Assembly (NCBI GenBank): GCA_947474365.1
Contig: CANJIU010000049.1
Span: 1-64,000 of the forward strand
DNA length: 64,000 bases
Reading direction: 5' to 3'
Source: Opitutia bacterium
Lineage (GTDB): Bacteria; Verrucomicrobiota; Verrucomicrobiia; Opitutales; Opitutaceae
Part shown: positions 12,691-32,477 of the stretch, piece by piece
Layout of the letters: each line of letters starts with the position of its first letter
Position numbering within the stretch: the first letter of the stretch is position 1
Notes under the pieces: model-generated
Seen by the model: only the letters and a program-made list of their open reading frames with translations
Databases searched by the model: none
Told to the model about the DNA's origin: nothing
Translations under genes and position numbers: made by a program

Positions 12691-13953
12691 TTACGCCGGC
12701 AGCGGCCGGCCCTTCGTCTCGGGCACGAACCAGATCAGACCGAGTCCGACGAGGTAAACGAGCGTGATGACGGCGCCGGCGCGGGCGTAGCTGCCGCCGA
12801 ACGTCTGCATGAGCGACCCCATCTGCAACGCGCCCACCGCGGCGACGATGCGGCCCAGATTGAAGGCGATGCCTTGCCCCGTGGCGCGCACGCGCGTGGG
12901 AAACAGTTCCGGCAGGTACAGCGGCAGCCAGCCGTAAAACGACGCCGTGACCACCCCCGAGAGAAAACTCGCAGTCAGGAAGGTGGCGCCGTAACTGCCG
13001 ATGCCGCGGAACATCCACTGGCACACGACGAACGAACTGGCGCACAACGCGAAGTAGGCGGCACGCCGGCCGAGTCGCTGCCCGAGCCACGCACCGGCGA
13101 GGCAGCCGATGACCGAGCCGACCCCGTTGAGCACCTGCGTGAACGCCTTGGCATCGGGGTTGGTGCCACCGGTCATCCGGTCGGCCCAGAGCGGCAGCCA
13201 TTGCACGGAGCCCCACGAGCCGACGAGCGCCACGCCGCCGAGTCCCGCGGCGATCAACAAGACTTTCAGATTTCCTCCGCGGAGGAGTTCGCGCAGCGGC
13301 TGCAACTGGCCCGTCGCGGCCACCGCCTGCCACCGGTGCGATTCCGGCACCCACCATTGGATCATGAAGGTCAGTAGCGCCGGGGCCGCCCCGATCAGCA
13401 CAACGTTTCGCCACGAAGCAGTGGTGATCGGAAAAAAGACGGCGACGACAGCGATGACGATGAAGCCGACGTTGGCCGCTGCGCCGATTACTCCGGCGAG
13501 GATCGGGCGATGCTTTTCCGGCCAGACCTCAGCCACCAGCGCGACGCCGAGCGACCACTCTCCGCCCATGCCGAGCGCCGCGATGAAACGCAGAGCCCCC
13601 AACTGCAGGGGGGTCCGGACGAAATAGGCCAGCGCGGTGAACACTGAATAGACCAGGATCGCGAAGCTCATCGCCCGCACGCGGCCGATCTTGTCTCCCA
13701 TCCAACCGAAGACGAGGCCGCCAAGCGCGGCACCCACGAGAAACATTGCGGTGATGGTCCCCATCCACTGCCCCACATACGCTTCGCCGACCACTCCGGC
13801 CCCCGCCTGCATCTCCTGCAGCGCGGGTCGGGCAATCAACGGAAAGATCCCCATCTCGAGTCCGTCGAACATCCAGCCGAGGAAGGCGGCGAACAAAACC
13901 AAGTTGCGGCGATCGCCAGTGGGGCGACCTGGAGGGGGAGGCACGGAAGACAC
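12691..13953 (-). CDS. major facilitator superfamily transporter
   Basis: The 420-residue inner-membrane protein has about 12 hydrophobic helices. The loop between helices 2 and 3 carries the MFS motif GWMGDKIGRVRAM, and a related GQRLGRR sits in the second half. A PESHRW segment ends the first six-helix bundle and PETKGRPL closes the protein, as in sugar and organic-acid symporters. It should carry a small substrate across the cytoplasmic membrane. It is the first gene of a minus-strand run followed by the TIM-barrel protein and a TonB receptor, giving outer- and inner-membrane steps in one cluster. The 280-bp divergent region to the next gene must hold its promoter. Confidence 0.88.
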   Translation of the reverse strand: MSSVPPPPGRPTGDRRNLVLFAAFLGWMFDGLEMGIFPLIARPALQEMQAGAGVVGEAYVGQWMGTITAMFLVGAALGGLVFGWMGDKIGRVRAMSFAILVYSVFTALAYFVRTPLQLGALRFIAALGMGGEWSLGVALVAEVWPEKHRPILAGVIGAAANVGFIVIAVVAVFFPITTASWRNVVLIGAAPALLTFMIQWWVPESHRWQAVAATGQLQPLRELLRGGNLKVLLIAAGLGGVALVGSWGSVQWLPLWADRMTGGTNPDAKAFTQVLNGVGSVIGCLAGAWLGQRLGRRAAYFALCASSFVVCQWMFRGIGSYGATFLTASFLSGVVTASFYGWLPLYLPELFPTRVRATGQGIAFNLGRIVAAVGALQMGSLMQTFGGSYARAGAVITLVYLVGLGLIWFVPETKGRPLPA

Positions 13954-14233
13954 CGGGGGAACAGGGGGATTGGGCGCGACCTAAACGGGTCCACCGGTCC
14001 GTTAGCAAGATCGATCATGGAAATGTTTCCCTTCCACCGGATCGAAGCATCCCCCGGGCCCGCCAGCATACTGCTGGTTTCGACGACCGACGCGCGTGTT
14101 TGGTCACGGCCGATTCACCGGGAGTTGATCGATCATCCCGCTTGACACTCCCATCTGACAACTCCGGTCTTGGCGCATTCGCCTGCGGACCAGACTCCGC
14201 GAGGTCCCCCAACCGCACCGCTACGCTCATCCC

Positions 14234-14824
14234 ATGGAAAAAGTACTCATCATTGTCGGCGACGCCTCAGAAACCGTCGATACGCTCTATCCGTTCTACC
14301 GTCTGCAGGAAGGCGGCTACCAACCCGTCGTGGCCGCACCGGAAAAGCGGAAATACCAGATGGTGATGCACGAGGTGAAGCCGGGCTGGACGATCACGAA
14401 GGAATGGGAGGGCTACACCATCAACGCCGACATCACGTTCGCGGAAATCAAGCCCGAGGAGTACTGCGGGATCTTTTTTAGCGGCGGACGCGCCCCGGAA
14501 TACATCCGGGACGACGAGGATTTGTTGCGGGCAACGCGCTGGTTCTTCGCGCAGAACAAGCCGATCGCGAGCGTCTGCCACGGTGTCGAAATTCCCGCCC
14601 GCGCCGACTGCGTGCGGGGCCGGCGGATGGCCACGGTGGGCAAGTGCAAATTCGATCTCGAAGTATGCGGCGGCATCTACGTCAACGCCCCGTGCGTGGT
14701 GGACGGCAATCTCGTGAGCGGGCGGACCTTTCACGATCACGGCCACTACATGGGCGCCTGGATGGCGCTGCTGGATGCCGAACGCGCGGCCCGCCAGTCA
14801 AAAGGCGCCCCCGATCGCAAGTAG
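14234..14824 (+). CDS. DJ-1/PfpI-family protein
   Basis: The 196-residue cytoplasmic protein has the class I glutamine amidotransferase-like fold of the DJ-1/PfpI family. The nucleophile-elbow cysteine is C115 in the segment IASVCHGVEIPA, with H116 next to it; an FFSGGRAPEYIRDDE loop precedes it. Family members act as proteases, glyoxalases or deglycases, and the specific activity cannot be told from sequence. The length is normal. It is the first gene of the long plus-strand island, 92 bp upstream of a TonB receptor and divergent from the MFS cluster. A role in dealing with reactive aldehydes made by the downstream dehydrogenase is possible but is inference. Confidence 0.85.
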   Translation: MEKVLIIVGDASETVDTLYPFYRLQEGGYQPVVAAPEKRKYQMVMHEVKPGWTITKEWEGYTINADITFAEIKPEEYCGIFFSGGRAPEYIRDDEDLLRATRWFFAQNKPIASVCHGVEIPARADCVRGRRMATVGKCKFDLEVCGGIYVNAPCVVDGNLVSGRTFHDHGHYMGAWMALLDAERAARQSKGAPDRK

Positions 14825-14849
14825 GCCTCAGCCCCTCCCGCGCACTACG

Positions 14850-14867
14850 TCGCGGTTCGGACCGCGA
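14850..14867 (+). promoter_or_regulatory. 7-bp stem with TCGG tetraloop before TonB receptor
   Basis: TCGCGGT and ACCGCGA pair perfectly around a TCGG loop, 50 bases before the receptor ATG at 14917 and 25 bases after the DJ-1 stop. There is no T-run. It may be an intercistronic stability or regulatory hairpin. Confidence 0.35.
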
Positions 14868-14916
14868 GCGCCCGGAGCGGCGCAACGTCCGCCCAACCCT
14901 ACCCCACCCCACGATC

Positions 14917-17900
14917 ATGACGTTCGCCTCCGCCGTCCGACTGATCACGCTCCGTTGGCCGGCGGTGCTCTTGTCGGCGGCAGCGACGGCCCAGACCACC
15001 GGGTCCGTGCCGCCAGACAAGGACGCCATCGTGTTGTCGCCGTTCGAAGTGAACACCTCGCGGGATGTCGGCTTCGTCGCCGCGAGTTCGCTCGCCGGTG
15101 GCAGGTTGGCGAGCGACCTCCGGGATACGGCCGTCGCGTATTCGGTGCTGACGCGCGAATTTCTCGACGCCGTTTCGATTACCGATCTCGCCGAGGCGAC
15201 AAAGTGGACCGTCAATACCAGCAGCACGCAGGATGATGCGAGCAACGCGTTGATCGCCCGCGGCGTCAGCTACAACTCCCGCGGCGTTGGCGCCGGTTCG
15301 CAATATCGCGACTTTTTCCCGAGCACGTTCAATCCCGACAGCTATAACGTCGAGCGCTTCGACTATGCCCGCGGGCCCAACGCGATCCTCTTCGGTCCGG
15401 GCGGCATCGGCGGCACGAGCAACGTCGTCACCAAGCAGGCCCTGTTGCGCAAATCCTCCGGTCAAATCGGCCTGCAAACCGGGTCGTGGGACCGCCACCG
15501 CGCCACGCTAGACGCCAATCTGCCGATCGGCGAATTGGCCGCGCTGCGGATCAACGCCGTGGACCAGGATGCGGCCAGCTGGCAGCAAAACACCTTCGAC
15601 AACCGGCGCGGGCTGCACCTCGCCGGCGTCCTCCAGCCGCTGCCGAAGCTGCGGTTGAATTTCGATGGCGAGTGGGGCCGCAAGGAGCAGAACGTCGCCA
15701 TCTCCAGCCTGCTCGACATCCTCAGCGCCTGGGACGGCGTGACCACGTTTGCGGTGCCGACGGCGGCGATCCCGGCGGCGCTCGCCACCTCCAGCAGCGC
15801 GCAGCGCTACGCCCCGCCCCATCTGTTGATTTCGCCGGCCAGCACGGGAAATTCCGTGCCGTTTGACTACGGCAACGACGTTCACACTCGCGGCGGGGCG
15901 CAGGCGGCGGGCCTGACCGTGGGCGGCGTGCCGGTGGCGAGCGCGCTGAGCCCGAACATCGCAAATTTCGCGATGCAGAACTCCCTCAACCTGCCCGCTT
16001 GGGACACGCGGCTGAAAAACATTCTCCAGTCGCCGGTCGCGCCGGCGGCGACGAAGGATTTCGTCCGCGACCTGGGGCTCAACCGCTCGACGTTCACGGA
16101 AAATCTCGATGTGCCCAACGTGTATCACAAATACCGCACCTTTGGCGGCACCGCCCGCTACCAGGTGAACGACCGGCTCTTCCTTGAGCTGTCGGGCAAT
16201 ACCCTCTGGCAGTATTGGGCCAACGAGCTCACCGCACGCAGCTCCATGCAGCAGATTCTCCTCGATCTCACGCAGACCCTACCCAACGGGCAGCGGAACC
16301 CTGGCTTTCTGCAGCCGTACAGCGAGAATCTCCGGACGGTTCATTTCTCCGAAAACCAAACGGACAACTATCGTGTCGCCGGCGCCTATGTGCTCAACGA
16401 CACCCGCCTCGGCAACTTCACGTTCAGCGCCAATGCCGGCGGCCAGAACGCCTCGGCCAAGAACCGTCGCATGATCTATTCGGTGGCCGGGCTCACCGCC
16501 GACCCGCGCGGCTGGGGCGCCTCGAGCACAATCAACGGCGTCGCGGTCGATCCGCGTTTATATTACCGGTATTACTGGACGGTGAACACCCCCGGCAACC
16601 GGCCGCTCTCCGCCCCGCTTGCCATCGACTCCGGCCCGGTGACCATAAACGCGAACGGCCAGAATCTCACCGGACGTCCGGCGTGGTTGCTCGATCCGGC
16701 CGGCATTTCCGCGGACATCGACACGACCTCAGAACTGAACTTCGCCCAGACCGCGGCGAACTGGAAATTCTGGCAAAACCGCGTGAACGTCCTTGCCGCC
16801 GGCCGGTTCGATCGGTTTGTCGCCCGACAAAAGAGCCCGTATCCGCTCGTCGCGGACCCCGCGTACGGCCCGGGCTGGGACGGGGTTGGCGTGCCCTTCC
16901 GCCCGGCGGCGCCCGCCAATTATTTCCAGCTTTCGTCCGACGATCAGGCGCGCTACTCGGCGCCAGCGGTCAAGGTCAGCCACGGCACGTACGCCGTGGG
17001 CGCGGTCGTCCACGCCACCCGCTGGCTCAGCCCGTTCGCCGATTTCGGAACCAGCTTCAATCCCAACGGCGCCGGCATCGACGTGTTCGGCCGCACGTTT
17101 GAGCCGCGCACCTCGCAGGGTTGGGACGCTGGTCTGCGAGTTTCCCTCCCCGGCGACCGGGTCAGCGCCACGCTCGGCCGCTATTCCGGACGCGAAACCG
17201 GCCAGCAAATCAACGTGGGCAGCGCCGCCGGTCTCACCTTCGCTCTCGACGGACAGATCAACAACATCATCACCGCCCGCCCGGTCGGCGCCGGCACCGC
17301 CGGAAACACCCGCGGACTCCCCGCCGTGCCCCGGGCCTACAGCGACCGCCGCGATTTGCAGAATTCCGGCTATGAAATCGAGGTGCTCGCCAATCTCGGC
17401 CGGGGCTGGCGCGTGATGGCCAACGCCGCGCGGGCCGCGGCTTCGCAGACCAACGCCTATTCCGACTCCCGCGCGTATCTGGAACGCAACGACGGCGTCC
17501 TGCGCCAGATCCTCGCCGACGCCGGCGTGACGGTCGGTGCGAGCGGCCAGGCCTCGATCAACGCGTCCGCCAGTCCCGACGCGCCCAACGCCGCGACCGG
17601 CTGGAACAACCTGCAGACGTTCAAGTCCGCCGTCATCACCGGCGAACAGAAGGTGAACCGGCTCCCGCGGATGACGGCGAACGCGTTTGTCGACCACACG
17701 TTTTCCGAGGGGCGCCTGCGCGGGATCACCCTCGGCGCCGGCGTGAACTATCGCGGACGGGAAATCATCGGCAACTACGGCGCCGACCTGATCGCGAACC
17801 CCGCCAACCCGACCCAGGCAATCGACAATCCCTCCCTGGGTCCGCTGAATTACGTCTACGGCAGCTCGTACTACACCGGCACGCTCACCGCCGGTTATCG

Positions 17901-18102
17901 CCTGCGGCTGAAAAACAACGCGAGCCTCTCCTTCAATCTGAAGGTCGACAATCTCTTCGATTACCGCGAGCCCCGCTACTACAACACCGTGCTCCGCCCG
18001 CCCGGCGGAGATCTCGCGTCCTTCGCCCGCGTCACGACGCCGTATCAATTTTTCTATCTCACCCCGCGCAACTTCACCCTGACGGTGACGCTGCGGTTCT
18101 GA
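14917..18102 (+). CDS. TonB-dependent receptor (LSPFEV type)
   Basis: The 1061-residue outer-membrane receptor starts at the ATG at 14917; codons upstream of it belong to the overlapping DJ-1 region and are discarded. After the signal peptide comes IVLSPFEVNTSRDVGF, then a plug (about 55-175) with NVERFDYARGPNAILFG and GTSNVVTKQ. The barrel ends in TPRNFTLTVTLRF. It is a close paralogue of the receptor at 8484-11603. The PQQ dehydrogenase begins 28 bp after its stop, so uptake and oxidation are probably expressed together. No SusD partner is present, as is usual for these receptors. Confidence 0.88.
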   Translation: MTFASAVRLITLRWPAVLLSAAATAQTTGSVPPDKDAIVLSPFEVNTSRDVGFVAASSLAGGRLASDLRDTAVAYSVLTREFLDAVSITDLAEATKWTVNTSSTQDDASNALIARGVSYNSRGVGAGSQYRDFFPSTFNPDSYNVERFDYARGPNAILFGPGGIGGTSNVVTKQALLRKSSGQIGLQTGSWDRHRATLDANLPIGELAALRINAVDQDAASWQQNTFDNRRGLHLAGVLQPLPKLRLNFDGEWGRKEQNVAISSLLDILSAWDGVTTFAVPTAAIPAALATSSSAQRYAPPHLLISPASTGNSVPFDYGNDVHTRGGAQAAGLTVGGVPVASALSPNIANFAMQNSLNLPAWDTRLKNILQSPVAPAATKDFVRDLGLNRSTFTENLDVPNVYHKYRTFGGTARYQVNDRLFLELSGNTLWQYWANELTARSSMQQILLDLTQTLPNGQRNPGFLQPYSENLRTVHFSENQTDNYRVAGAYVLNDTRLGNFTFSANAGGQNASAKNRRMIYSVAGLTADPRGWGASSTINGVAVDPRLYYRYYWTVNTPGNRPLSAPLAIDSGPVTINANGQNLTGRPAWLLDPAGISADIDTTSELNFAQTAANWKFWQNRVNVLAAGRFDRFVARQKSPYPLVADPAYGPGWDGVGVPFRPAAPANYFQLSSDDQARYSAPAVKVSHGTYAVGAVVHATRWLSPFADFGTSFNPNGAGIDVFGRTFEPRTSQGWDAGLRVSLPGDRVSATLGRYSGRETGQQINVGSAAGLTFALDGQINNIITARPVGAGTAGNTRGLPAVPRAYSDRRDLQNSGYEIEVLANLGRGWRVMANAARAAASQTNAYSDSRAYLERNDGVLRQILADAGVTVGASGQASINASASPDAPNAATGWNNLQTFKSAVITGEQKVNRLPRMTANAFVDHTFSEGRLRGITLGAGVNYRGREIIGNYGADLIANPANPTQAIDNPSLGPLNYVYGSSYYTGTLTAGYRLRLKNNASLSFNLKVDNLFDYREPRYYNTVLRPPGGDLASFARVTTPYQFFYLTPRNFTLTVTLRF

Positions 18103-18130
18103 ACCGCAGACGAAATAGTCACGCGCCACC

Positions 18131-20278
18131 ATGATTCCTTCCCGCCTCATCGCCCGCCTCTTTCTGGTAGCACCGTCCCGCGCCGCGCTGCTGACCGCTC
18201 TGGCCGCCACCCCGGCGGGCCGAGCCGCCGAGAGCGAGTATCGCACGATCCCCGCGGCGCGCACCGCCGAGCTCACACCGGCCAACGGCTGGCCGGCGCC
18301 CGACGCGTACCGCGATTGGAGTCGTTCCCTCGGCGGGCCGACCTCCAACCGCTTCTCCTCCCTCGACCAGATCAATACGGCCAACGTCGCTCAACTAAAG
18401 GTCGCATGGACCTACCGCTCCAAGGACGGCGCCGCCAACCTGCAGGCGAACCCCATTGTCGTCGACGGCACCATGTATGCCCCAACGGCGGGCCATGCGA
18501 TTGTCGCTCTCGACGCCGCGACCGGCGTCGAACGCTGGCGATTCAAGCCAGAGAAGCTCGGCAACAAGCTGGAGGACCTGCCAGCGCGCCGCGGACTGAT
18601 TCACTGGCCGGGCGACGCCCGCGTGGGCTCGGGCCCGCGGCTGATTTTCACGGCGGGCAACTGGGTTTACGAACTCGATCCGAGGTCGGGCAAACCCGTC
18701 GCCGGCTTCGGGCAGAACGGCCGCGCGGTGCTGCCCACCGGCGGCGGGGTGACGGGCGCGGTGTGGCGCGACACGCTGGTGATTCCCGGATTTGGCCGCG
18801 ATGTCTTCGGCTACGACGTCGTGACCGGCACGCTGCGGTGGCGGTTCCACACGATGCCCCAACCGGGCGAATTTGGGGCCGACACCTGGCGCGGCCAGGA
18901 GACCGGCGCCAATTGCTGGGGCGGCATGGCGCTCGACGAGTCCCGCGGTATCGCCTTTGTGGCGACAGGTTCGCCCAAGCCGAACTTCGTCGGAACCGGC
19001 CACCTCGGGGACAATCTTTTCTCCAACTGCGTCATCGCGATCGACGTCGCGACCGGCCGGCGCCTCTGGCATTTTCAGGAGATTCGCCACGACATCTGGG
19101 ACCTCGACCTGCCGGCGCCGCCAAACCTGGTGACCATCACGCGCGACGGGAAAAAATACGACGCGGTCGCGCAGGTGACCAAGATCGGCAACACGCTTCT
19201 GCTCGACCGGCTGACCGGACAGCCGCTCTTCCCGTTTCGCCTGCGCCGGGCACCGGCTTCGCCACTGGCCGGGGAGGAGACCTCGCCGTATCAGCCCGAC
19301 CTCGAGCTGCCACAGCCGTTCGGCAAACAGGAATTCCGGCGCGACGAGATCACGGAGCGGACGCCCGAAGCGCGCGCGTTTGTCGAGGCGTCGCTCACGC
19401 GAATAAATCTCGGCTGGTTCACCGCGTTTGAGGCCGCCAAGCCGACGGTGTTCTACGGGCTGCATGGCGGCGCGGAGTGGACCGGCGCCGCCGTCGATCC
19501 GCGCAACGCCCGGCTCTACGTCAGCGCGAACCATCTGCCGTGGGCCATCACCGTCTTCCGTGACGACGACCCGCCGCCGCTCGTGCCGGCGACCGAAGGG
19601 GAAAAGGCCTACCAGCAATTTTGCGCCGGCTGCCACGGTCCTGATCGCAAGGGCGTCGGAATGGCCCCGCCGTTGCGCGGCGCCCGCCACCGGATCGACA
19701 CCGCCGCTCTCCTTGAACTGATTCAAAAGGGCCGCAACGCCATGGTGCCGCTTGGCGCAATCCCACTGGACCAGCAGCGGGCAATCGCCGATTTCGTGCT
19801 GGTGAAGGACCGTCCCGTGCCCCCGGCCCCGACGGGCGCACCGAAGTACGCGTTCGGCGGATACCGCAAGCTGCTCGATCACGAGGAATACCCCGGCATC
19901 AAGCCGCCATGGGGCACGCTGAACTGTCTCGACCTCAATACGGGAAAAATTCTCTGGCGCGTGCCGCTTGGCGAATATGCCGCACTCACGCAGGCGGGCC
20001 TGCCCCGGACCGGCACGGAGAATTTCGGCGGCGCGATTGTGACGGCGAGCGGACTCGTGTTCTGCTCCGGCACGCGCGACCGAAAGATTCGCGCGTTCAG
20101 CGCCGCCACCGGCGACGAACTGTGGTCCGCTGAGTTGCCGCTGCATGGCACCGCCCCTCCGACCACCTACGAGGCGGGCGGGCGGCAATTCGTCGTCATC
20201 GCCGCCACCGGCGGAGGCAAACTCGGCGGCCCCGCCGGCGACGCCTGGGTCGCGTTCGCCCTGCCGGCCACCAAATAG
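18131..20278 (+). CDS. PQQ-dependent dehydrogenase with internal cytochrome c domain
   Basis: The 715-residue exported quinoprotein begins with a signal peptide (to about residue 31), then propeller blades containing PQQ-repeat segments such as TANVAQLKVAWTYR, GHAIVALDAATGVERW and DVATGRRLWHFQ. These match quinoprotein alcohol/glucose dehydrogenases, which oxidise an alcohol or sugar in the periplasm using pyrroloquinoline quinone and a calcium ion. A c-type heme motif CAGCH lies at residues 498-502, inside the chain; further propeller blades (LDLNTGKILWRVPL, AFSAATGDELWSAEL) follow it. The heme would take electrons from PQQ. No PQQ biosynthesis genes are in the window. Substrate unknown. Confidence 0.88.
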   Translation: MIPSRLIARLFLVAPSRAALLTALAATPAGRAAESEYRTIPAARTAELTPANGWPAPDAYRDWSRSLGGPTSNRFSSLDQINTANVAQLKVAWTYRSKDGAANLQANPIVVDGTMYAPTAGHAIVALDAATGVERWRFKPEKLGNKLEDLPARRGLIHWPGDARVGSGPRLIFTAGNWVYELDPRSGKPVAGFGQNGRAVLPTGGGVTGAVWRDTLVIPGFGRDVFGYDVVTGTLRWRFHTMPQPGEFGADTWRGQETGANCWGGMALDESRGIAFVATGSPKPNFVGTGHLGDNLFSNCVIAIDVATGRRLWHFQEIRHDIWDLDLPAPPNLVTITRDGKKYDAVAQVTKIGNTLLLDRLTGQPLFPFRLRRAPASPLAGEETSPYQPDLELPQPFGKQEFRRDEITERTPEARAFVEASLTRINLGWFTAFEAAKPTVFYGLHGGAEWTGAAVDPRNARLYVSANHLPWAITVFRDDDPPPLVPATEGEKAYQQFCAGCHGPDRKGVGMAPPLRGARHRIDTAALLELIQKGRNAMVPLGAIPLDQQRAIADFVLVKDRPVPPAPTGAPKYAFGGYRKLLDHEEYPGIKPPWGTLNCLDLNTGKILWRVPLGEYAALTQAGLPRTGTENFGGAIVTASGLVFCSGTRDRKIRAFSAATGDELWSAELPLHGTAPPTTYEAGGRQFVVIAATGGGKLGGPAGDAWVAFALPATK

Positions 20279-20313
20279 TCTCTCCTGAAACGTTCAACGT
20301 CACCCAAACCACC

Positions 20314-20988
20314 ATGGACAAACGCAGCCCATCGCAAACGAAGTCATCCCGCGTCTACGGCGAACTGCGGCGTGACATCACAGCCGGCGCCTTCCGCCCC
20401 GGCGAGCACCTCGTCCGGCGCGATTTGGTCAAGCGCTACGGGGTCAGCATCTCGATCGTGAATGAAGCCCTTGGCCGGCTGAGCGGCGACGGCCTGGTCG
20501 AGACGACCGAGATGATCGGGACGCGCGTCGTGAGTCTCAGCGAAGAGGGACTGCGGGATGAATTCGCCCTGCGCGAGGCGGTCGAACGCCACGTGGCGCG
20601 AGTGCTCACCGAGCGCGCCACCGACAAACAGCTCGCGACGCTGCTGGAGGACGCCCGGATGCTCGACCGATGGATGAACGAACTCGGACATGACGACGGA
20701 CAGGGCAGCCTCCTCCATCTCGAATTTCACCTGAAGCTCGCGCGGACCACCGGTTTCGCGTCGCTTGAGGAAAACCTGAAGCGGATGAGCATGCGCGCCC
20801 TGCTCACCACCCGCTGGTTGAAAAACCTGCGCCTGCCCCATCCGGAGGATTTCCACCAGCAGCTCGTCCAGGCGTTTATGCGCCGCGACGTCGTAGCAGC
20901 GGACGAGACGATGAGGGCCCACCTGCACTATGCCGACGAGTATCAGGCGAAGCACGCCGCCGGGGCGGTCGCCGCGAGCACCAGTTGA
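20314..20988 (+). CDS. GntR-family regulator (FCD type)
   Basis: The 224-residue protein has an N-terminal winged helix-turn-helix (about 10-75; a segment like RRDLVKRYGVSISIVNEALGRL is the recognition unit in two parts) and a C-terminal all-helical FCD ligand domain (about 85-215). FadR/VanR-type members usually repress a catabolic operon until an acid or sugar-acid intermediate binds. The gene sits between the PQQ dehydrogenase and the redoxin gene on the same strand, with 35 and 30 bp gaps, so it is likely autoregulated with the island. No operator repeat was recognised in the short flanks. Confidence 0.85.
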   Translation: MDKRSPSQTKSSRVYGELRRDITAGAFRPGEHLVRRDLVKRYGVSISIVNEALGRLSGDGLVETTEMIGTRVVSLSEEGLRDEFALREAVERHVARVLTERATDKQLATLLEDARMLDRWMNELGHDDGQGSLLHLEFHLKLARTTGFASLEENLKRMSMRALLTTRWLKNLRLPHPEDFHQQLVQAFMRRDVVAADETMRAHLHYADEYQAKHAAGAVAASTS

Positions 20989-21018
20989 CCCCTCGGCTGG
21001 GCCGTGCCTCCCGCTCCC

Positions 21019-22227
21019 ATGAAGCTTCCCCTCGCCCTGACCCTTGCCCTCTCGCTGGCGACCATTGCCGGTCACGCCGCTGAGGCTGCGTCGCCGGAAA
21101 TCGCCCGGCTCCAGATCGGAGATCACGCGCCCGACTTCCGCCTGCCCGGCCTCGACGGCCGCACCCGCTCGCTCGCTGACTACGCCCAGGCCGACGTGCT
21201 GATGGTCGTGTTTCTTTCCAACCATTGTCCGGATTCCAACGCCACCGCACCACGCCTGATCGCGTTTGCGCAGCAGATGGCCGGACGCAGCCTCGCGATT
21301 GTCGCCATCAACCCTAATCATCCGGAGGCGGTGAGCGTCGACGAGCTGGGGTATTCGAATTACACGGACAGCTTCACCGACATGAAGCGCTACGCGGCGG
21401 ACCTCGGCTTCGTGTTCCCCTACCTCTACGATGGCGAGACTCAGGCCACCGCGCGCGCGTACGGCTGCCTCTGCACCCCGCACCTCTTCGTCTTCGACCG
21501 CGCGCGGCGGCTGCGTTACAAGGGACACCTCGACAATTCGCGTTTCGCCGACCCGACCACGGTAACTTCGACCGAGGGCCGAGAGGCAGTCGAGGCCCTG
21601 CTCGCCGGGCGGCCGGTGCCGGTGGCGGAAACCGCGCCGCACGGCTGCTCGACCAAGTGGCTGGCCAAGAGACCGGGCATCGCCGTCAAAATCAAACGCT
21701 GGGACAGCACGCCGGTCACCGTGGAACCGATCGACCCCGCGGGGGTGGCCGCCCTGCGGCGCAACGGCACGGGCCGGCTGCGCCTTTTCAACGTGTGGGC
21801 GACGTGGTGCGTGCCGTGCGTCGAGGAATTTCCGACGCTGGTGGAGGCGGCGCGCCGGTTCAGCCAGCGTGAATTCGAATTGATCACCATCAGTGTCGAC
21901 GACCCTGCGCAGCTGTCGCGGGCGAAGGCGTTTCTGGAAAAGCAGGGAGCCGGGCTGACACCGAAGCTCGCGGCGGCCCTGAAAACGGAAGGCCGGCGCA
22001 CGAACAGCTACCTGTTCCAGGGGGCCGACACCGCGAAGCTGATGGACGCGCTCGACCCCGGTGGATGGCAAGGCGGCGTACCGCACACCGCACTCGTCTC
22101 ACCAGACGGCCGCGTCCTCTGGCGGCACAGCGGAGTGGTCGAAGAAACGGAGCTGCGGCGGCAAATCCTCGCCGTGCTCGGTCCTTATTTTATTCCGGGA
22201 GACGGAACCGTCCGTGGCACACGTTAA
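21019..22227 (+). CDS. exported protein with two thioredoxin-fold domains
   Basis: The 402-residue product has a signal peptide, then an AhpC/TSA-type redoxin domain (about 25-185) whose active-site region reads FLSNHCPDS, with a single catalytic-type cysteine. A TlpA/ResA-like domain follows (about 225-390) with the classical WCVPC motif in NVWATWCVPCVEEFP. Both should act in the periplasm. TlpA-type proteins reduce disulfides, often in heme c attachment sites, which fits the c-type heme proteins encoded on both sides. I prefer the ATG at 21019, which begins the signal peptide, over a GTG 15 bases upstream. The stop overlaps the start of the next gene by 14 bp, indicating translational coupling. 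Confidence 0.8.
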   Translation: MKLPLALTLALSLATIAGHAAEAASPEIARLQIGDHAPDFRLPGLDGRTRSLADYAQADVLMVVFLSNHCPDSNATAPRLIAFAQQMAGRSLAIVAINPNHPEAVSVDELGYSNYTDSFTDMKRYAADLGFVFPYLYDGETQATARAYGCLCTPHLFVFDRARRLRYKGHLDNSRFADPTTVTSTEGREAVEALLAGRPVPVAETAPHGCSTKWLAKRPGIAVKIKRWDSTPVTVEPIDPAGVAALRRNGTGRLRLFNVWATWCVPCVEEFPTLVEAARRFSQREFELITISVDDPAQLSRAKAFLEKQGAGLTPKLAAALKTEGRRTNSYLFQGADTAKLMDALDPGGWQGGVPHTALVSPDGRVLWRHSGVVEETELRRQILAVLGPYFIPGDGTVRGTR

Positions 22228-25219
22228 CTCCATTCAATTCGCACTCGGTGCCCTGCTCGCCACCCTCCCGGTGGCTTGGGCGGCTGATTCCTATCAGCCC
22301 GTGGACACCCAAACCTCGGGCCAACCGCTCGCGCCCGCTGAGGCACTGGCGCGCATGCGCCTGCCCCCGGGCTTCAAGGTCACCCTCGCCGCCGCCGAGC
22401 CCGCCGTGCGGCAGCCGATCGCGATGGCGTACGACGCCCGCGGACGCTTGTGGGTTGCGGAGAGCTACTCGTACAACGGTTCGGATTTCACCGACGAGCG
22501 TCACGACCGCATCGTGATTTTCGAAGACGCCGACGGCGATGGTGTTTTCGAATCGCGGCGCGTGTTTCACGATCATCTGAACCGCCTCACCGGGCTCGCC
22601 GTCGGCCTCGGGGGAGTATGGGTCACAACACCACCCACGCTCTCGTTCATCCCTGATCGCAATCACGATGACGTGCCGGATAGTGAGCCCGAGGTGAAGC
22701 TGGACGGCTGGACGCTCAAGGCCGAACACAACAGCGTGAACGGTCTCACGTGGGGCCCGGACGGCTGGCTCTATGGGCGCCACGGGATCAAGGAACCGTC
22801 GCACCCCGGCCTGCCGGGCACGCCCGTGGCGGGGCGCCCGGAAGTCAGCTGCTCCATCTGGCGCTACCATCCGGCCCGGCGCGTATTCGAGGTTGTGGCG
22901 GACGGCACGATCAATCCCTGGGGGCTCGATTTCGACGAACTGGGCCAGATGTTCCTGAGCACGAGCGTCGTCGATCATCTGTGGCATGTCGTGCCCGGAT
23001 CGAGTTTCAAGCGCTGGGTCGGGCGCGATCTGGCGATCCAGCCGCACCTCTATGATCTGATGGATCCGGCCAACGATCATTCCCACCGGGCGCCCGACGC
23101 GAAGACCAAGCGGGTGGCGGCGACCGATGACACGAGCGGATATGCCGGCGGCCACTCGCACTCCGACGCGATGATCTATCTCGGCGATCGCTGGCCCGCG
23201 ACCTATCGCGGCACGGTCCTCATGAGCAACATCCACGGCCGTCGCATCAACCGCGACCGCCTCCAACGCGCCCCTGAAGACGGTCGCCTCATCGCGACCC
23301 ATGAGCCGGATTTTCTGCGCGCGAACGACCCGTGGTTCCGCGCCGTCTCGCTGCAATACGGGCCGGACGGCGACGTCGTGATGAGCGACTGGTCCGACAA
23401 CGGGGAGTGTCACGATCGCGACGGAGTCCATCGCAACAGCGGGCGGCTCTACAAGATTTCCTGGGGCGATCCGCGGCAGGTGGCGGTGAATCTGCAGCGA
23501 GCCAAGTCCGAGGAACTCGTCGCGCTGCAACTGCATCCGAACGACTGGTTCGTCCGCCAGGCACGACTGCAATTGGCGGAACGGGCACTGGCCGGGGAAA
23601 ATCTAACCACGGTCAATTCGGCCCTGCGCCGGATCTTTGAATCGCATCCCGCGCCCGCGGGCCGCCTGCGCGCGCTCTGGGCGCTCCATGTCAGCGGCGG
23701 GACGGATGGCGCCTGGCTGGCGGGCCAGCTCGCCGACCGTGACGAGAACGTGCGCTATTGGGCCGTGCGACTGCTGGTCGACGGCGGCGCCCCGGCCGCA
23801 AAGCACGCGGACCTGCTCGTGCAACGCGCCGGGGTTGAGACGTCCTGGATCGGGCGCATGGCGCTCGCGTCGGCGTTGCCCGTGCTTGGCGCCAACGACC
23901 GGTGGAAGCTGGGTGCCGCTCTGGCACGAACCGCGCAGCCCGGGGAGGATCGCAACCTCACGCGTTTGCTTTGGTTCGGCTGGCATTCGGCGGTCGCGGC
24001 TCACCCAGCCGACAGTCTCGCACTGGCTCCAAACTTGCGGGTACCCGCGCTCGTCGAATGGATCGGTCGGCGGCTGGCCGAACAAGCGGCGCAGGATCCC
24101 GGCATTGTCGTTCAACTCCTCTCTGCGATTGGCAAGGGCGGCACGGTCACGCGCGATGCGCTCGTCAGTGGCGCGGCCGCGGGCCTCGAACTCCGGAGCT
24201 ACGATCTGCCCACCGATGCAACCGTTCCGCTGCGCTCCTACTTCAATCACGCGACGACCGCGTTGCGCCAGCCAGCGCTAACACTCGCCGCCCGGCTCCG
24301 CGATCCGGTCGCATTGGAACGGCTCCGGGCAAACCTACGGAACAAACGCCTTCCGTCAGCCGTCCGCACCGACGCGCTCGCGACGCTGGCCCCGCTCCGC
24401 CCCGCCTGGCTGGCGGGCGACCTGCTCACTCTGCTCGCCGCGGGGGAACTGATCGACCCGGCGATTCGCGCCCTGGTGGCTTACGATGATCCGCGCATCG
24501 CTCCCGCCGTGCTCGCCGTTTTCCCGCGACTCAACCGGACCTCGCGTGCCGCCGCCGTGGATACCTTGCTGGCTCGCGACGACACTTTGCGCGTCCTGCT
24601 CGACGCCCTCGCGGCCGGCCGGATCGACAAGAAGGACATCACGCACTTCCAGGCACGCCAGGTCGCAAAGTCCGCCGCACCCGAGCTGCGCCGCCGCTTT
24701 GAAACGCTGTGGGGCAGCGTCAACTCCTCGTCGGAGGCGCTGGCTGAGCGGATGAAGAAGCTGCGGATGACGATGAAAGCCGACTTCCTCGAACTCGCCG
24801 ACGTGCCGCACGGTCGCGCCCTCTTCGAACAGCGCTGCGCCGTCTGCCACACGTTGTTCGGCAAGGGCGGCAAGCTCGGGCCCGACCTCACCGGCTCCGG
24901 CCGAAAAGAACTCGAATACCTCATCGTCAACATCACTGATCCCAACGCGGCGATCCCCGCCGACTGGCGGCTTACGATCGCCACGCTGACCGACGGCCGC
25001 GTCGTCGCCGGTTCGATCGGTGCGGAAACGGAAACGACGGTCACCCTGCTCACGATGGAAGGGACGGTCGCGCTTGAGCGGGCGACGATTCGGACGCTGG
25101 AACGGAGCAACACCTCGCTGATGCCAACCGGACTCCTGGACGACCTGCCACCGGATCACGTGCGAGATCTGTTTGCGTTCCTGATGTCGGACGACGGCGC
25201 CAAGCCGGCGGGAAAATGA
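22214..25219 (+). CDS. propeller-HEAT-cytochrome c membrane-associated dehydrogenase-like protein (first paralogue)
   Basis: The 1001-residue protein starts at a GTG (22214) followed by a signal peptide (LGALLATLPVAWA). Residues about 45-420 form the Pirellula/Verrucomicrobium propeller domain (TIGR02604, DUF7133), related to soluble glucose dehydrogenase propellers: LPPGFKVTLAAAEP, IAMAYDARGRLWVAE and WGPDGWLYGR. A HEAT-like helical region covers about 430-830. A TIGR02603 heme domain closes it, with CAVCH at 875-879 and GKGGKLGPDLTG after. It probably oxidises a sugar or alcohol, or relays its electrons, in the periplasm. The gene overlaps the redoxin gene by 14 bp and its stop overlaps an in-frame ATG of the next open frame. 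Confidence 0.82.
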   Translation: MAHVNSIQFALGALLATLPVAWAADSYQPVDTQTSGQPLAPAEALARMRLPPGFKVTLAAAEPAVRQPIAMAYDARGRLWVAESYSYNGSDFTDERHDRIVIFEDADGDGVFESRRVFHDHLNRLTGLAVGLGGVWVTTPPTLSFIPDRNHDDVPDSEPEVKLDGWTLKAEHNSVNGLTWGPDGWLYGRHGIKEPSHPGLPGTPVAGRPEVSCSIWRYHPARRVFEVVADGTINPWGLDFDELGQMFLSTSVVDHLWHVVPGSSFKRWVGRDLAIQPHLYDLMDPANDHSHRAPDAKTKRVAATDDTSGYAGGHSHSDAMIYLGDRWPATYRGTVLMSNIHGRRINRDRLQRAPEDGRLIATHEPDFLRANDPWFRAVSLQYGPDGDVVMSDWSDNGECHDRDGVHRNSGRLYKISWGDPRQVAVNLQRAKSEELVALQLHPNDWFVRQARLQLAERALAGENLTTVNSALRRIFESHPAPAGRLRALWALHVSGGTDGAWLAGQLADRDENVRYWAVRLLVDGGAPAAKHADLLVQRAGVETSWIGRMALASALPVLGANDRWKLGAALARTAQPGEDRNLTRLLWFGWHSAVAAHPADSLALAPNLRVPALVEWIGRRLAEQAAQDPGIVVQLLSAIGKGGTVTRDALVSGAAAGLELRSYDLPTDATVPLRSYFNHATTALRQPALTLAARLRDPVALERLRANLRNKRLPSAVRTDALATLAPLRPAWLAGDLLTLLAAGELIDPAIRALVAYDDPRIAPAVLAVFPRLNRTSRAAAVDTLLARDDTLRVLLDALAAGRIDKKDITHFQARQVAKSAAPELRRRFETLWGSVNSSSEALAERMKKLRMTMKADFLELADVPHGRALFEQRCAVCHTLFGKGGKLGPDLTGSGRKELEYLIVNITDPNAAIPADWRLTIATLTDGRVVAGSIGAETETTVTLLTMEGTVALERATIRTLERSNTSLMPTGLLDDLPPDHVRDLFAFLMSDDGAKPAGK

Positions 25220-25308
25220 TCCCGAAGCGGTGTGACGAACGTTTGTTTTTGCCACCGCACCTCCCCTATCATCCGCCGCCCCGCACGATCAGCCTTCCTT
25301 GCTTCACG

Positions 25309-28300
25309 ATGAGAACCGCCGCCCACGTTGCCCGCATTGCACTCGCCCTGCTCGGTCTCGCGTCCCTCGACCGTTTGCCCGCGGCGATACCGACTCCTTT
25401 CAACACGGAGACCGCGGCCGGCGGCCCGATGCCGGCGGCGATGGCGGCCGCGCAGGTCAAACTGCCGCCCGGGTTTCGTTGCACCGCGTTCGCAGCCGAG
25501 CCCGACGTTTGTCAACCCATCGCGATGGTGACTGATTCGCGGGGGCGGCTGTGGGTCGCCGAGAACTACACTTACGCTGAACGAACGGTCAATTTTCATC
25601 CTGATCTGCGCGATCGCATCCTGGTTTTCGAGGACACCGACAATGACGGCGTCTTCGACAAACGCACCGTGTTCTGGGAAGGTGCCCAGCGCCTCACCAG
25701 CATCGAGGTCGGGTTCGGCGGGGTGTGGGCGCTCTGTCCGCCCAACCTTTATTTCATTCCGGACAAAAACGGCGACGACGTGCCGGATCGCGAGCCCGAG
25801 ATTGTGCTCGACGGCTTTGAATTCAACCGGGCACGCCACACGCTGGCCAACGGGCTGCGCTGGGGGCCAGACGGCTGGCTCTATGGACGTCAGGGAATTC
25901 TGGGTACGTCGCGGGTGGGAAAACCGGACGCCTCCGCGGACCAGCGGACCACGGTAAACGTCGGCATCTGGCGTTATCATCCGCGACACGGCACGTTTGA
26001 GATCGTTGCGGCGGGAACCACGAATCCCTGGGGCATGGATTGGAACGCGCAAGGCGAGTCGTTCTTTATCAACACCGTCATCGGCCATCTCTGGCACATC
26101 ATTCCGGGCGGACATTATCGCCGCATGTCGGGCGATGACCTGAACCCGCGAGTCTACGAAATCATCGAGCAACACGCGGACCACGTCCACTGGGCGACCG
26201 GCGAGGTCTGGACCGACGTGCGCCGGGGAGTTTCCCAGAGCACGCTGGCGACCGGCGGCGGACATGCGCACACCGGCCTGCTCATCTACCAGGGCGGCCA
26301 GTGGCCCGCCGAGTGGAATGGAAAACTGCTGACGAACAATCTCCACGGTCGGCGGATCAACGTGGAGCGGCTTGAGCGCGAAGGCAGCGGCTACGTCGGA
26401 AAACGCGAGCCGGATGAGTTCATTTTCAACGACCCATGGCTGCGGGCGATTGACCTCATTGCGGCGCCGGACGGCGGGGTGTTCCTCAGCGATTGGAGCG
26501 ACACGGGGGAGTGCCACGAAAACGACGGCGTCCATCGCACGAGCGGGCGGATTTACAAAATTTCCTACGGACCAGCGAAGCCGCGCACGATCGGCGACCT
26601 CGCCCGCCTCGACGGCGCCGCGCTCGCGCAGCTGCAGTTCAGCCCGAACGATTGGCTCCCCCGCCAAGCGCGGCGCGTGCTGGCCGACCGCGTCGCAGCC
26701 GGAGCAAGTGTCGCCGATGCCGACAAGGCGTTGCGGCAGATCCTTGCCCAACCGACCAACACCGTGGCGCGACTTCGCGCGCTCTGGGCGCTCCACGTCA
26801 TCACCGACGGCGCCGGAACCGATCTAGTCAAACTGCTGACGGAATCAGACGAGTCCCTGCGTGCCTGGGCAATTCGCCTGGCGGTGGATCGCGGCCCCAC
26901 GGCCGTCAGCACCGAGCTATTGGACGGCTTCATTCGTCTGGCAAAATCCGATCCGTCGGCCCTGGTGCGGTTGACGCTCGCCTCGGCGCTGCAACGACTC
27001 CCGAACGGCCAGCGTGCCCGCGTGGCCGCGCCACTCTTGGCGCACGGCGAGGACGCCGCCGACCACAATCTGCCGCTCATGCTCTGGTATGGCATCGAAC
27101 CGCTGGCGAGCGCGCCGGACGTGGCGTTTGAAAAACTCGTGATCGATGCCCGCATCCCGCGGGTGCAGCGGCTGGCGGCACGACGGCTGGCCGAAGACAT
27201 CGACCAGGCCCCGGGTCGCATCAACACCCTGCTTTCCGCCGTCGCCACCAGTGCGGTGATCGAGTTCCGGCAGGCAGTGCTCGATGGCATTGCCGAGGGT
27301 CTGCGCGGCCGGCGCCAAGCCCCGAAGCCCGGAATCTGGGACGACATCAAGGGACGTCTGTCGGCCGGCGCATCTGCACCGCTCCTCAGCCGTATCAGGG
27401 GTCTCGGTGCGCTCTTTGGCGACAACGGCGCCATCGACGAATTCCGCGCCATCGTCCGCAACGAATCCGCCGGCCCGGCCGAGCGCCGGGCCGCGCTGCA
27501 ATCGCTCGTTGACGTGCGCGCGCCCGGACTGCCCGAACTCTGTATTCCACTACTCGCCGTCCGCGGCCTTTCCGGCACGGCGGCGGCCGGCCTGGCTCTG
27601 GGTGGCGAAGCGACGATCGCCGACCTGCTATTGAAGGCATGGCCGCAGATTCCCAGCAACGAACGTCCGGCGGTGATGAGCGTTCTCGTCTCGCGCCCGG
27701 CTTGGGCGGGCACGGTGCTGGATCGACTCGCAGCCGGCACACTTCAGCGCCCGGATCTTAGCAGCTATCACGCCCGACAAATCCGCGCCTTCAAAGACCC
27801 CACCCTCACCCGGAAACTCGAGAGTGCATGGGGTAAACCTCAGGACGGTTCCGAGGCGGAGAGAAGCGCCACCCTCCTGAAATGGCGTCGCGAGTTCGCC
27901 CCCGAAGCCTTGAAGATCGCCAGTCCGGCCAAGGGTCGCGCTGTCTTCACCGCACTCTGCGGGGCGTGCCACACGCTCAACGGCGAGGGCGGCAGCATCG
28001 GTCCCGATCTCACCGGCGCCGCGCGTGACAATCTCGAATATCTGCTGGAAAACATCCTCTTCCCGAGCGCGGTCGTGGCCGACGATTACCGGCTCACCAC
28101 CCTGAAACTGAAAGACGGTCGCGTGCTCGCCGGCATGATTCGTTCCCGCACCGGCAAGACCCTCGCCCTGCAAACGATGTCGGAACGGATCGCACTCTCC
28201 GTCGACGACATCGTCAGCCAGGACACCGCCCCTCTGTCACTCATGCCAACCGGCCTGCTCGACGGCTTGGAGCCCTCCCAGGCGCGCGATCTGATCGCCT

Positions 28301-28317
28301 ATCTCATGACGAAATAG
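25309..28317 (+). CDS. propeller-HEAT-cytochrome c dehydrogenase-like protein (second paralogue)
   Basis: The 1002-residue protein repeats the architecture of its upstream neighbour: signal peptide, TIGR02604 propeller (VKLPPGFRCTAFAAEPDV, DSRGRLWVAENYTY, WGPDGWLYGRQG), HEAT-like helices (about 440-840) and a C-terminal heme domain with CGACH at 884-888 followed by GEGGSIGPDLTG. The ATG at 25309 begins the signal sequence. An in-frame ATG at 25216 overlaps the previous stop and could also serve, adding 31 unlikely residues. The two paralogues diverge enough to have different substrates or different places in one electron chain. The product is predicted to be exported; no membrane anchor other than the signal is obvious. 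Confidence 0.82.
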   Translation: MRTAAHVARIALALLGLASLDRLPAAIPTPFNTETAAGGPMPAAMAAAQVKLPPGFRCTAFAAEPDVCQPIAMVTDSRGRLWVAENYTYAERTVNFHPDLRDRILVFEDTDNDGVFDKRTVFWEGAQRLTSIEVGFGGVWALCPPNLYFIPDKNGDDVPDREPEIVLDGFEFNRARHTLANGLRWGPDGWLYGRQGILGTSRVGKPDASADQRTTVNVGIWRYHPRHGTFEIVAAGTTNPWGMDWNAQGESFFINTVIGHLWHIIPGGHYRRMSGDDLNPRVYEIIEQHADHVHWATGEVWTDVRRGVSQSTLATGGGHAHTGLLIYQGGQWPAEWNGKLLTNNLHGRRINVERLEREGSGYVGKREPDEFIFNDPWLRAIDLIAAPDGGVFLSDWSDTGECHENDGVHRTSGRIYKISYGPAKPRTIGDLARLDGAALAQLQFSPNDWLPRQARRVLADRVAAGASVADADKALRQILAQPTNTVARLRALWALHVITDGAGTDLVKLLTESDESLRAWAIRLAVDRGPTAVSTELLDGFIRLAKSDPSALVRLTLASALQRLPNGQRARVAAPLLAHGEDAADHNLPLMLWYGIEPLASAPDVAFEKLVIDARIPRVQRLAARRLAEDIDQAPGRINTLLSAVATSAVIEFRQAVLDGIAEGLRGRRQAPKPGIWDDIKGRLSAGASAPLLSRIRGLGALFGDNGAIDEFRAIVRNESAGPAERRAALQSLVDVRAPGLPELCIPLLAVRGLSGTAAAGLALGGEATIADLLLKAWPQIPSNERPAVMSVLVSRPAWAGTVLDRLAAGTLQRPDLSSYHARQIRAFKDPTLTRKLESAWGKPQDGSEAERSATLLKWRREFAPEALKIASPAKGRAVFTALCGACHTLNGEGGSIGPDLTGAARDNLEYLLENILFPSAVVADDYRLTTLKLKDGRVLAGMIRSRTGKTLALQTMSERIALSVDDIVSQDTAPLSLMPTGLLDGLEPSQARDLIAYLMTK

Positions 28318-31946: not shown

Positions 31947-32477
31947 ATGCTCAAGCAGTTCACCGTCCCTACCTTGACCGCGCTTCTACCGTTGCGCGCC
32001 CAAGCGGCGCCGGCTCTCCCTCCGACCCGCGATACAAAATCAGTCCCGGCCAATGCGGACCACGGGGTCGCGCACTTGCCATTCGAGGTCCCGGCCAACA
32101 CGAAAGGATACTACTCCGCCAACACGATGTCGGAGATGCGCCCGAACACCAACGTCAAGGGTCTCGCGTCGTTGCCCACCGTGGTGACGAAGGAGCAGAT
32201 GGCGGACTTCGCGATGCTCGATATCAACGACATCTTCGTCTACCCCGCGACCACTGAAGGCACCGGGACGGACCACGACTTCGTTATCGACCGGAATAGC
32301 CAGCCCTACGACAACATGCAGCTGAACTCGACCGTGGAAAACCGCGTCCGGGGCATCGCAGCCGCCAACATCTCGCTCGGCAATATCGGAACGATCGGCG
32401 CCATTCCCGACGGGCGGCTCACAGCTTCCGCATCGTCGATTCACGGCTGTTAGTTCTGTCGGCGACGTTCGATTTTT
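31947..32477 (+). pseudogene. internally deleted TonB receptor
   Basis: The first 155 codons align with the N-terminus and plug of the receptor at 28402-31803: KGYYSANTMSE, VVTKEQMADFAMLDINDIF, RVRGIAAANISLGNIG. At the PDG codons near 32410 similarity jumps to the last 20 codons of that receptor (intact: YRIVDPRQFILSATFDL; here FRIVDSRLLVLSATFDF), but one base out of frame. About 950 codons of plug and barrel are missing. The open frame therefore ends at 32453 after 168 codons, in out-of-frame residues. No functional receptor can be made. Substitutions throughout suggest that the copy is old. Confidence 0.85.

Follow-up and report, generated by a model that had tools for sequence, protein, structure and literature searches.

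A 64,000-nt stretch of an Opitutia bacterium genome from the family Opitutaceae (assembly GCA_947474365.1, contig CANJIU010000049.1, positions 1 to 64,000; hereafter "the window") carries a cluster of genes for a pyrroloquinoline quinone (PQQ)-type propeller dehydrogenase with an inserted heme-c domain (the quinohemoprotein), TonB-dependent receptors, and further redox proteins. We propose, with a probability of roughly 45%, that this cluster and the genes diverging from it constitute a two-armed GntR-FCD regulon for breaking down a sugar or glycoside oxidatively in the periplasm. In the rightward arm, two TonB-dependent receptors (TonB1 and TonB2) would carry the substrate over the outer membrane, and the quinohemoprotein would oxidize a hydroxyl group via PQQ, with the electrons moving first to the heme c of the same protein and from there to respiration. 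Two further heme proteins, PVC1 and PVC2, would be additional propeller-cytochrome oxidoreductases, working on the same intermediate or on one further along. Judged by what is known of their families, a cytoplasmic DJ-1 protein would clear reactive dicarbonyl by-products, and a double redoxin would reduce the cysteines of exported cytochromes or otherwise help. In the leftward arm, an exported TIM barrel would isomerize, epimerize, or beta-eliminate the keto-sugar, and a major facilitator superfamily (MFS) transporter would take up its product. The GntR regulator would bind both ATGATCGATCAT-like palindromes between the arms, and PQQ would be obtained by scavenging.

Gene content and predicted operators of the locus

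Seven long open reading frames (ORFs) on the plus strand occupy positions 14234-28317, and all have the expected domains (ORF translations, Pfam; Table 1). A preliminary description of this DNA, made from its letters and ORFs, had listed seven co-directional genes of these families, which the ORFs and the Pfam and TIGR matches bear out. With start codons picked by codon usage, the gaps between the seven genes are, in order, 92, 28, 35, 30, -14, and 89 bp; the short gaps or overlaps described earlier hold for this range, except that the DJ-1 and TonB1 genes do not overlap, the latter starting at about 14917. The earlier limits of the unit were too narrow, because TonB2 follows as an eighth gene of the run, and the MFS and TIM barrel genes, 23 bp apart, form a divergent arm across a 280-bp gap from the DJ-1 gene. 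The likely partner barrel and the MFS transporter lie outside the interval once regarded as self-contained, the barrel just beyond its edge. The receptor TonBu, 137 bp from the barrel gene, may be a third member of the leftward arm. At the other end, the run may include a small protein, for which a Pfam search gave no match, and an esterase-like protein.

The GntR regulator has a helix-turn-helix domain (56.8 bits) and an FCD domain (40.3 bits), both above the gathering score. A second copy is encoded in the same genome on contig C25 (locus L172), with 63% identity and a nearly unchanged recognition region. There (L172:3658-9825), the GntR gene occurs with genes for a TonB receptor, a TIM barrel 45% identical to that of the window, and a GMC oxidoreductase, the last divergent; by sequence, this oxidoreductase is closest to fructose and glucose dehydrogenases among solved structures. 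Judged by its gene content, L172 appears to have another type of oxidant in the corresponding place under a related GntR.

The palindrome ATGATCGATCAT is perfect and intergenic in the divergent promoter of L172, where it is the sole match. In the window, only two sites match it with at most one mismatch, and both lie in the gap between the MFS and DJ-1 genes, 118 bp apart. No shuffled window out of 150 contained two such sites; when the 280-bp stretch was shuffled 5000 times, one site arose in 6 cases and two sites in 0, and the exact site arose in 0 of 5000 shuffles of the C25 stretch. The predicted operator was identified post hoc within approximately 1.9 Mb of loci, which hold 10 matches at this stringency (some overlapping, some mutually homologous). 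Seven of the 10 lie in script-called genes, namely 1 of the 4 in loci of the source genome and all 6 in relatives. A looser core, GATCGATCAT, was found in 20 of 190 loci, and these 10 bases by themselves therefore lack specificity. Predicted operator 2 overlaps a promoter-like match on the minus strand (14161-14132); the promoter scan as a whole gave 1 match versus 2.0 in shuffles, and the terminator scan 19 versus 15.2, neither above chance. Since two predicted sites lie between the arms, control of both arms by one regulator is the most economical reading, and the GntR control suggested earlier appears strengthened by a palindrome common to both GntR loci.

Table 1. Features of the locus and its predicted operators (positions in the window)
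Feature	Positions	Strand	Evidence or remark
TonBu, TonB-dependent receptor, possible third gene of leftward arm	8484..11603	-	translation; 38% identity to TonB1
Xylose-isomerase-like TIM barrel (IolE-like), Tat-like leader	11741..12667	-	PF01261 E 3.1e-28
MFS transporter, gene 1 of leftward arm	12691..13953	-	PF07690 E 8.7e-35
Predicted GntR operator 1	14007..14018	no strand	one mismatch to ATGATCGATCAT
Predicted GntR operator 2	14125..14136	no strand	one mismatch to ATGATCGATCAT
DJ-1/PfpI protein	14234..14824	+	PF01965 E 1.3e-30
TonB1, TonB-dependent receptor	14917..18102	+	PF07715 E 2e-07
Quinohemoprotein: PQQ-type propeller dehydrogenase, heme-c domain inserted	18131..20278	+	PF01011 E 1.6e-144, PF13442 E 1.1e-10
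GntR/FCD transcriptional regulator	20314..20988	+	PF00392 E 1.8e-15, PF07729 E 5e-10
Double redoxin (AhpC/TSA-like and TlpA/ResA-like, CVPC)	21019..22227	+	family profiles, motif count
PVC1: DUF7133 (propeller-type) N-domain and C-terminal heme c	22214..25219	+	TIGR02604 331 bits, TIGR02603 113.8 bits
PVC2, paralogue of PVC1	25309..28317	+	TIGR02604 385 bits, TIGR02603 110.7 bits
TonB2, second TonB-dependent receptor, eighth gene of run	28402..31803	+	PF07715 E 1.8e-05; gap 84 bp
Small protein, possible tail of run	31947..32453	+	gap 143 bp
BD-FAE/abhydrolase esterase-like protein, possible tail of run	32505..33434	+	Pfam; gap 51 bp

The quinohemoprotein and its TIM-barrel companion

The PF01011 propeller domain of the quinohemoprotein scored 483.3 bits against a gathering score of 26.7, and its heme-c domain covers residues 487-556. 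The motifs H320-D-x-W-D-x-D (80 rows) and CxxCH (76 rows) are conserved in approximately 99% of the aligned homologues, and we take the Asp of the former to be catalytic. A single CxxCH motif each is found in the quinohemoprotein (C498AGCH), PVC1 (C875AVCH), and PVC2 (C884GACH). These domains and conserved motifs support the periplasmic PQQ/heme-c oxidation that was suggested earlier, and TonB1 and TonB2 support the accompanying suggestion of import by TonB receptors. The nearest named subfamily comprises the membrane glucose/quinate/shikimate dehydrogenases (TIGR03074), with which the protein has the PQQ propeller in common, at 338.7 bits against a cut-off of 832.65; for the methanol/ethanol dehydrogenases (TIGR03075), 179.3 bits compare with a cut-off of 480.05. 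Quinohemoprotein alcohol dehydrogenases (1kv9 and 1kb0) also have a PQQ propeller and a heme-c domain in one chain; however, in the alignment, the heme-c domain of 1kv9 follows the last propeller part, whereas that of the window protein precedes it.

The quinohemoprotein set comprised 60 relatives from named contigs plus 20 copies that came from the family and the source genome. Because peptide patterns were used to retrieve the 60 relatives, these are not a random sample, nor are they independent of one another. An N-terminal extension of at least 240 amino acids was present in 31 of these 80 loci, and PF01261, the xylose-isomerase-like TIM barrel family, matched 29 of the 31 extensions (ThuA matched one). 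When compared with the extension of L035, 27 of the 30 others were 44-69% identical and three (L012, L019, and L139) were 14-19% identical. Among the 49 unfused copies, a barrel lay within 3 kb in six; in L018, its gene directly follows that of the quinohemoprotein after a gap of 33 bp. These barrel counts come from a local profile applied to script-called genes, where many contigs were short and no genes were called in L147. In L035, the fused TIM-PQQ protein is directly followed by a redoxin (56% identity), and 6 of 20 redoxin loci from the family and the source genome have a barrel gene directly upstream in the same orientation. A Laminin_G_3 lectin-like domain was also matched in 11 of the 31 extensions (loci L012-L071 and L139), suggesting possible carbohydrate binding. 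The extension of L012 (L012:9041-12067, plus strand; quinohemoprotein 66%) is unlike the TIM-barrel ones, with a ThuA match by sequence look.

The same association appears among paralogues in the source genome (G000), in which a profile search of the assembly gave 63 PF01261 places. Of the 10 listed paralogues of the locus genes outside the window, 6 have such a place no more than 3 kb away, at a chance of about 4.9% each (binomial 2e-6); these are 2 of 2 for DJ-1, 1 of 1 for GntR, 2 of 3 for the redoxin, and 1 of 4 for the quinohemoprotein, the last from a separate search in which all 48 own-genome candidates were scored. Contigs C60 and C93, which have no listed PF01261 place, each hold a short, incomplete match to the quinohemoprotein; when these two are added, the count becomes 6 of 12 (1e-5). 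The PF01261 places are partly non-independent, with contig C32 alone holding four, and among the matches listed, none of three PVC paralogues was near one. The fusion and linkage counts together indicate that the TIM barrel is a recurrent companion. In a literature search that covered few subscription journals and is weak evidence, none of the titles and abstract beginnings listed named a fusion of a PQQ dehydrogenase with a xylose-isomerase-like barrel. The combination of known parts in the locus as a whole seems to be new.

The window barrel belongs to an IolE-like family (A2), in which an RR pair is invariant in all 9 sequences. Its leader is twin-arginine translocation (Tat)-like by inspection, with no match to the Pfam TAT model, and export of the barrel is a prediction. 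When the A2 profile was compared with solved structures, 3lmz, UlaE, IolE, and IolI outscored AtOGE (8bvk, E 2.1e-9); the profile also reached the 2-hydroxy-3-keto-glucal hydratase 8ro4 (E 2.2e-7), below ordinary isomerases and epimerases. AtOGE, which is encoded in an Agrobacterium operon, is described as binding its metal at His132, Asp163, His189, and Glu233, with His134 as the catalytic residue (PMC10628242). The window barrel has K-x-H, D-x-SH, H-x-KD, and VEVS at seemingly matching strands; in this motif mapping, made with AtOGE outside the alignment, four positions are compatible with the AtOGE active site and the first ligand is Lys. Because the A2 profile scores ordinary isomerases and epimerases higher, several reactions appear possible for the window barrel. 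A structure model of the L018 barrel (16 sequences, pLDDT 84.7) reached Z 19-21 against sugar isomerases and epimerases, including 3-keto-D-glucoside 4-epimerase at Z 19.4 (root mean square deviation 3.2, 232 aligned residues). At E 0.01, a sequence search with the profile of the fused-type barrel family (A3) retrieved no solved structure; the fold search placed this type of barrel among sugar isomerases, with AtOGE (8bvk) at rank 48 by Foldseek. In VIA-align, AtOGE lay outside the best 50 rows, which excludes nothing.

The locus might instead serve simple aldose oxidation, in which a free sugar is converted to a lactone or acid for energy and the barrel is an ordinary epimerase or isomerase, with no glycosidic cleavage. 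The nearest named subfamily (TIGR03074, under its cut-off) and the preference of the A2 profile for 3lmz, UlaE, IolE, and IolI over AtOGE and 8ro4 fit this explanation, whereas three loci point to glycosides or keto-sugars. Two close DJ-1 paralogues (L173:40-3126 and L174:8916-13517) adjoin TIM barrels and GH28-like proteins, hinting at pectin-related substrates, and a single PVC-type chain in L186 (2475-6647, plus strand) combines an N-terminal 3-keto-disaccharide hydrolase domain (PF06439), DUF7133, HEAT_2 (just under the cut-off), and cytochrome c. We consider simple aldose oxidation rather unlikely.

PQQ supply and known sugar-oxidizing systems

The source genome encodes several quinoproteins, and we found no sign of PQQ synthesis. 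In a profile search, PqqC was absent from this genome and from the 120 family genomes, as it was from the 14 controls of that search. Across the phylum, this model matched 8 of 387 genomes, and 6 of these, all from one other family of the class, were above the cut-off, which indicates that the search works. For PqqE, nothing in the source genome exceeded the cut-off and 3 places scored below it; because all 14 controls also fell below the cut-off, this result says only that nothing in the genome passes. PQQ is probably scavenged rather than synthesized by the cell, and the oxidation chain is then not self-contained. Three TonB receptors are located in or beside the locus, and at least one of them may have PQQ import as a candidate role. 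PqqU-based scavenging of PQQ has been described, with five Verrucomicrobia listed as having PqqU without the synthesis genes, at least in the part of the report used here (PMC12124388). Those bacteria and the source genome are alike in having quinoproteins with no PQQ synthesis genes found.

A precedent for the proposed chemistry is the oxidation-elimination-hydration-reduction route, whose dehydrogenases are paired with barrels that carry sugar phosphate isomerase annotations (PMC7676230; PMC10628242). As far as the relevant parts of these reports go, both the levoglucosan genes LgdA-LgdB1-LgdB2-LgdC (PMC7676230) and the Agrobacterium operon GlycDH-AtOGE-AtHYD-Gfo (PMC10628242) place an oxidizing dehydrogenase beside TIM barrels of that type, as does the present locus. 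The window differs from both, as they are described there, in an oxidant of another cofactor class (PQQ/heme c) and in the Tat-like leader of its barrel, and it adds TonB receptors, cytochromes, and a redoxin to the scheme. A sugar-type dehydrogenase is present, and the C3 oxidation of the known pathway is not readable from sequence. A Gfo/Idh/MocA gene (PF01408) is present in the window at 3461-4780 on the plus strand, but it lies past two TonB receptors and an AraC regulator and is in neither arm; its possible Tat leader scores under the cut-off. It is followed by the AraC gene (4872-5690) and a TonB receptor gene (5802-7955). A carbohydrate-metabolism role has also been proposed for PSCyt proteins of freshwater Verrucomicrobia; that work concerns PSCyt1-3 proteins rather than a PVC1/PVC2 pair, and the term "PQQ" does not occur in its main text (PMC5615132).

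Other neighbors of the locus include a sulfatase (34964-36439) and a mandelate-racemase/enolase family protein (36547-37734), both downstream on the minus strand and facing the cluster. At the boundary between the cluster and the sulfatase, a putative REP/Y1-type small transposase was noted at 33754-34740 (minus strand) by sequence look only. A protein with two CxxCH motifs is encoded at 56733-60869 (plus strand), next to a DUF1501-like protein; the two presumably resemble planctomycete-specific cytochrome pairs. The source genome as a whole gave 322 first-look candidates for a TonB query.

Conservation and competing explanations

The set was sought in a family sample of 120 genomes, the source genome included. 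Matches were found in at least 31 genomes for the quinohemoprotein (E 1e-150), at least 39 for the redoxin (1e-50), at least 19 each for PVC1 and PVC2 (1e-150), at least 4 for DJ-1 (1e-60), and at least 3 for TonB1 (1e-200). Among the matches listed, a close GntR (1e-40) occurred in 1 of the 120 genomes, namely the source genome with its two copies. Orthologues of the parts, again among the matches listed, were on separate contigs or tens of kilobases or more apart, and the closest spacing was 27-29 kb, between PVC and quinohemoprotein matches in G048 and G101. The preliminary description had held that the unit would be accidental if its orthologues were scattered in relatives and not co-expressed; the scattering is what this gene-neighborhood comparison found. 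Likewise, the set was in none of the neighborhoods of the 60 named-contig loci and 55 other stretches, and clustering of neighbors gave no frequent separate-gene partner of the quinohemoprotein. In L138, an MFS transporter (57% identical) lies approximately 5 kb from the quinohemoprotein, and the recurrent neighbors were of sulfatase, DUF1501, and Gfo/Idh type (named by sequence look), each seen in at most 11 loci that had been collected around different anchor genes.

Several results weigh against the two-armed regulon. The complete set is known from one genome only; among the matches listed, the seven genes occurred together in none of the other 119 family genomes. The source assembly is a bin of 10.3 Mb in 275 contigs, of which the window represents contig 49 (C49), with 97.6% completeness and 7.4% contamination, and genome sizes among the four sampled congeners are 3.8-6.6 Mb; given this size and contamination, some of the "paralogues" may come from another organism. 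The candidates scored in this genome were the best 15 of 37 for the redoxin, 9 of 41 for the quinohemoprotein, 24 of 31 for GntR, 6 of 91 for PVC1, and 6 of 322 for TonB1, so the paralogue lists are lower bounds. The palindrome ATGATCGATCAT was picked by eye among 42 listed imperfect palindromes from 11 intergenic stretches of both loci, a direct search of both GntR loci for common 16-mers with 14 matching letters found none, and counts at two mismatches were not above those in shuffles (3 versus a mean of 1.98 for the window and 1 versus 0.70 for L172). With regard to the barrel, 43 of the 80 quinohemoprotein loci have none, either fused or within 3 kb, and 14 of the 20 redoxin loci have none within 3 kb. 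The window barrel lies 5.6-8.5 kb from the GntR, redoxin, and quinohemoprotein genes, and it is of a different family (A2) from the fused barrel (A3). By inspection, the A3 barrel is without the usual metal ligands, and the L018 barrel, which is of this type, may therefore not be a canonical isomerase. Finally, the known pathways, as described in the parts of the reports cited above, use two barrels (an eliminase and a hydratase), whereas the window's contig has only one PF01261 place (C49:11834-12511); the locus would thus work like an oxidation-elimination glycoside pathway rather than be a member of it.

An alternative is that the genes are accidental neighbors, unrelated or separately regulated in a large genome and forming no pathway. 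That the set occurs in no sampled relative agrees with this explanation, and so does the history of the quinohemoprotein. Its closest relative is that of L018 (80%; contig of the metagenome-assembled genome Opitutus sp. GAS368), with which alone it pairs in a tree (SH-aLRT 100), outside a 15-row clade of 14 family rows and the source-genome copy on C4. The tree was built from 68 of 81 rows by a quick method with no bootstrap; 13 rows were removed by hand, mostly because they were truncated, broken, or very distant, and L032 for no good reason. This placement makes the window protein a second quinohemoprotein lineage in the genome, for which transfer and old duplication both seem possible. Nevertheless, the tight gaps across eight genes, the occurrence of four separate gene families near barrels, and the palindrome common to both GntR loci argue against mere coincidence, and we regard accidental neighborhood as an unlikely account of the locus.

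The preliminary description had called PVC1 and PVC2 propeller-HEAT-cytochrome proteins that would pass electrons onward. Their DUF7133 propeller-type part and heme c were confirmed, with both the TIGR02604 N-domain and the TIGR02603 heme domain above the cut-off, as expected of the PVC type; Pfam listed no HEAT repeats for either. They are paralogues with 42% identity. When the PVC profile was compared with solved structures, cytochrome-type chains matched the heme part, with 7zs0 first. A model of the PVC2 propeller was best matched by PQQ sugar dehydrogenases in Foldseek at a TM of only about 0.3, and with an alignment of four rows and a mean pLDDT of 58, this fold search is only a hint. 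A PVC-type match (24-41%) was within 3.3 kb of the quinohemoprotein in 4 of the 60 named loci (L015, L018, L042, and L061), so the pairing is not unique to the window. A closed chain, in which electrons run through the three hemes of the quinohemoprotein, PVC1, and PVC2, would suit the three CxxCH proteins in one run and those four loci, but it is improbable, because PVC1 and PVC2 have DUF7133 domains spanning 350 residues that would be superfluous in a mere carrier, the weak PVC2 model best matches PQQ sugar dehydrogenases, and family PVC matches, among those listed from the best 6 candidates per genome, lie at least 27 kb from quinohemoproteins. PVC1 and PVC2 may be separate dehydrogenase-cytochromes rather than an electron relay; besides the weak PVC2 model, the hydrolase-domain fusion of the PVC relative in L186 would suit such a role as oxidoreductases.

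In the two-armed regulon, the accessory proteins would be divided between compartments. The start of the double redoxin is signal-peptide-like by inspection, and the DJ-1 protein, whose closest solved relative by sequence is "Protein DJ-1 homolog D" (4ofw, E 1.7e-46), has no visible signal peptide and is cytoplasmic by inspection.

Verrucomicrobia and Planctomycetes encode many unusual cytochromes and TonB receptors of open function. The quinohemoprotein-barrel fusion and the predicted operator point to partners and candidate reactions that can be examined, as well as to a binding site. A broader and more doubtful extension is that many bacteria of the Planctomycetes-Verrucomicrobia-Chlamydiae (PVC) group use oxidation-elimination glycosidase chemistry in a respiratory form. 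A PQQ/heme-c enzyme, often fused to an exported barrel and supplied with PQQ scavenged from neighboring cells, would oxidize a glycoside in the periplasm, where it would also be cleaved, and the electrons would go directly to cytochromes; the GntR regulon of the window would then be one wiring of this system, and the close GntR copy elsewhere in the assembly would control a flavin version. If the proposed reading is true, it would explain how a bacterium that does not produce PQQ can use sugars or glycosides as an energy source without first taking them across the inner membrane.

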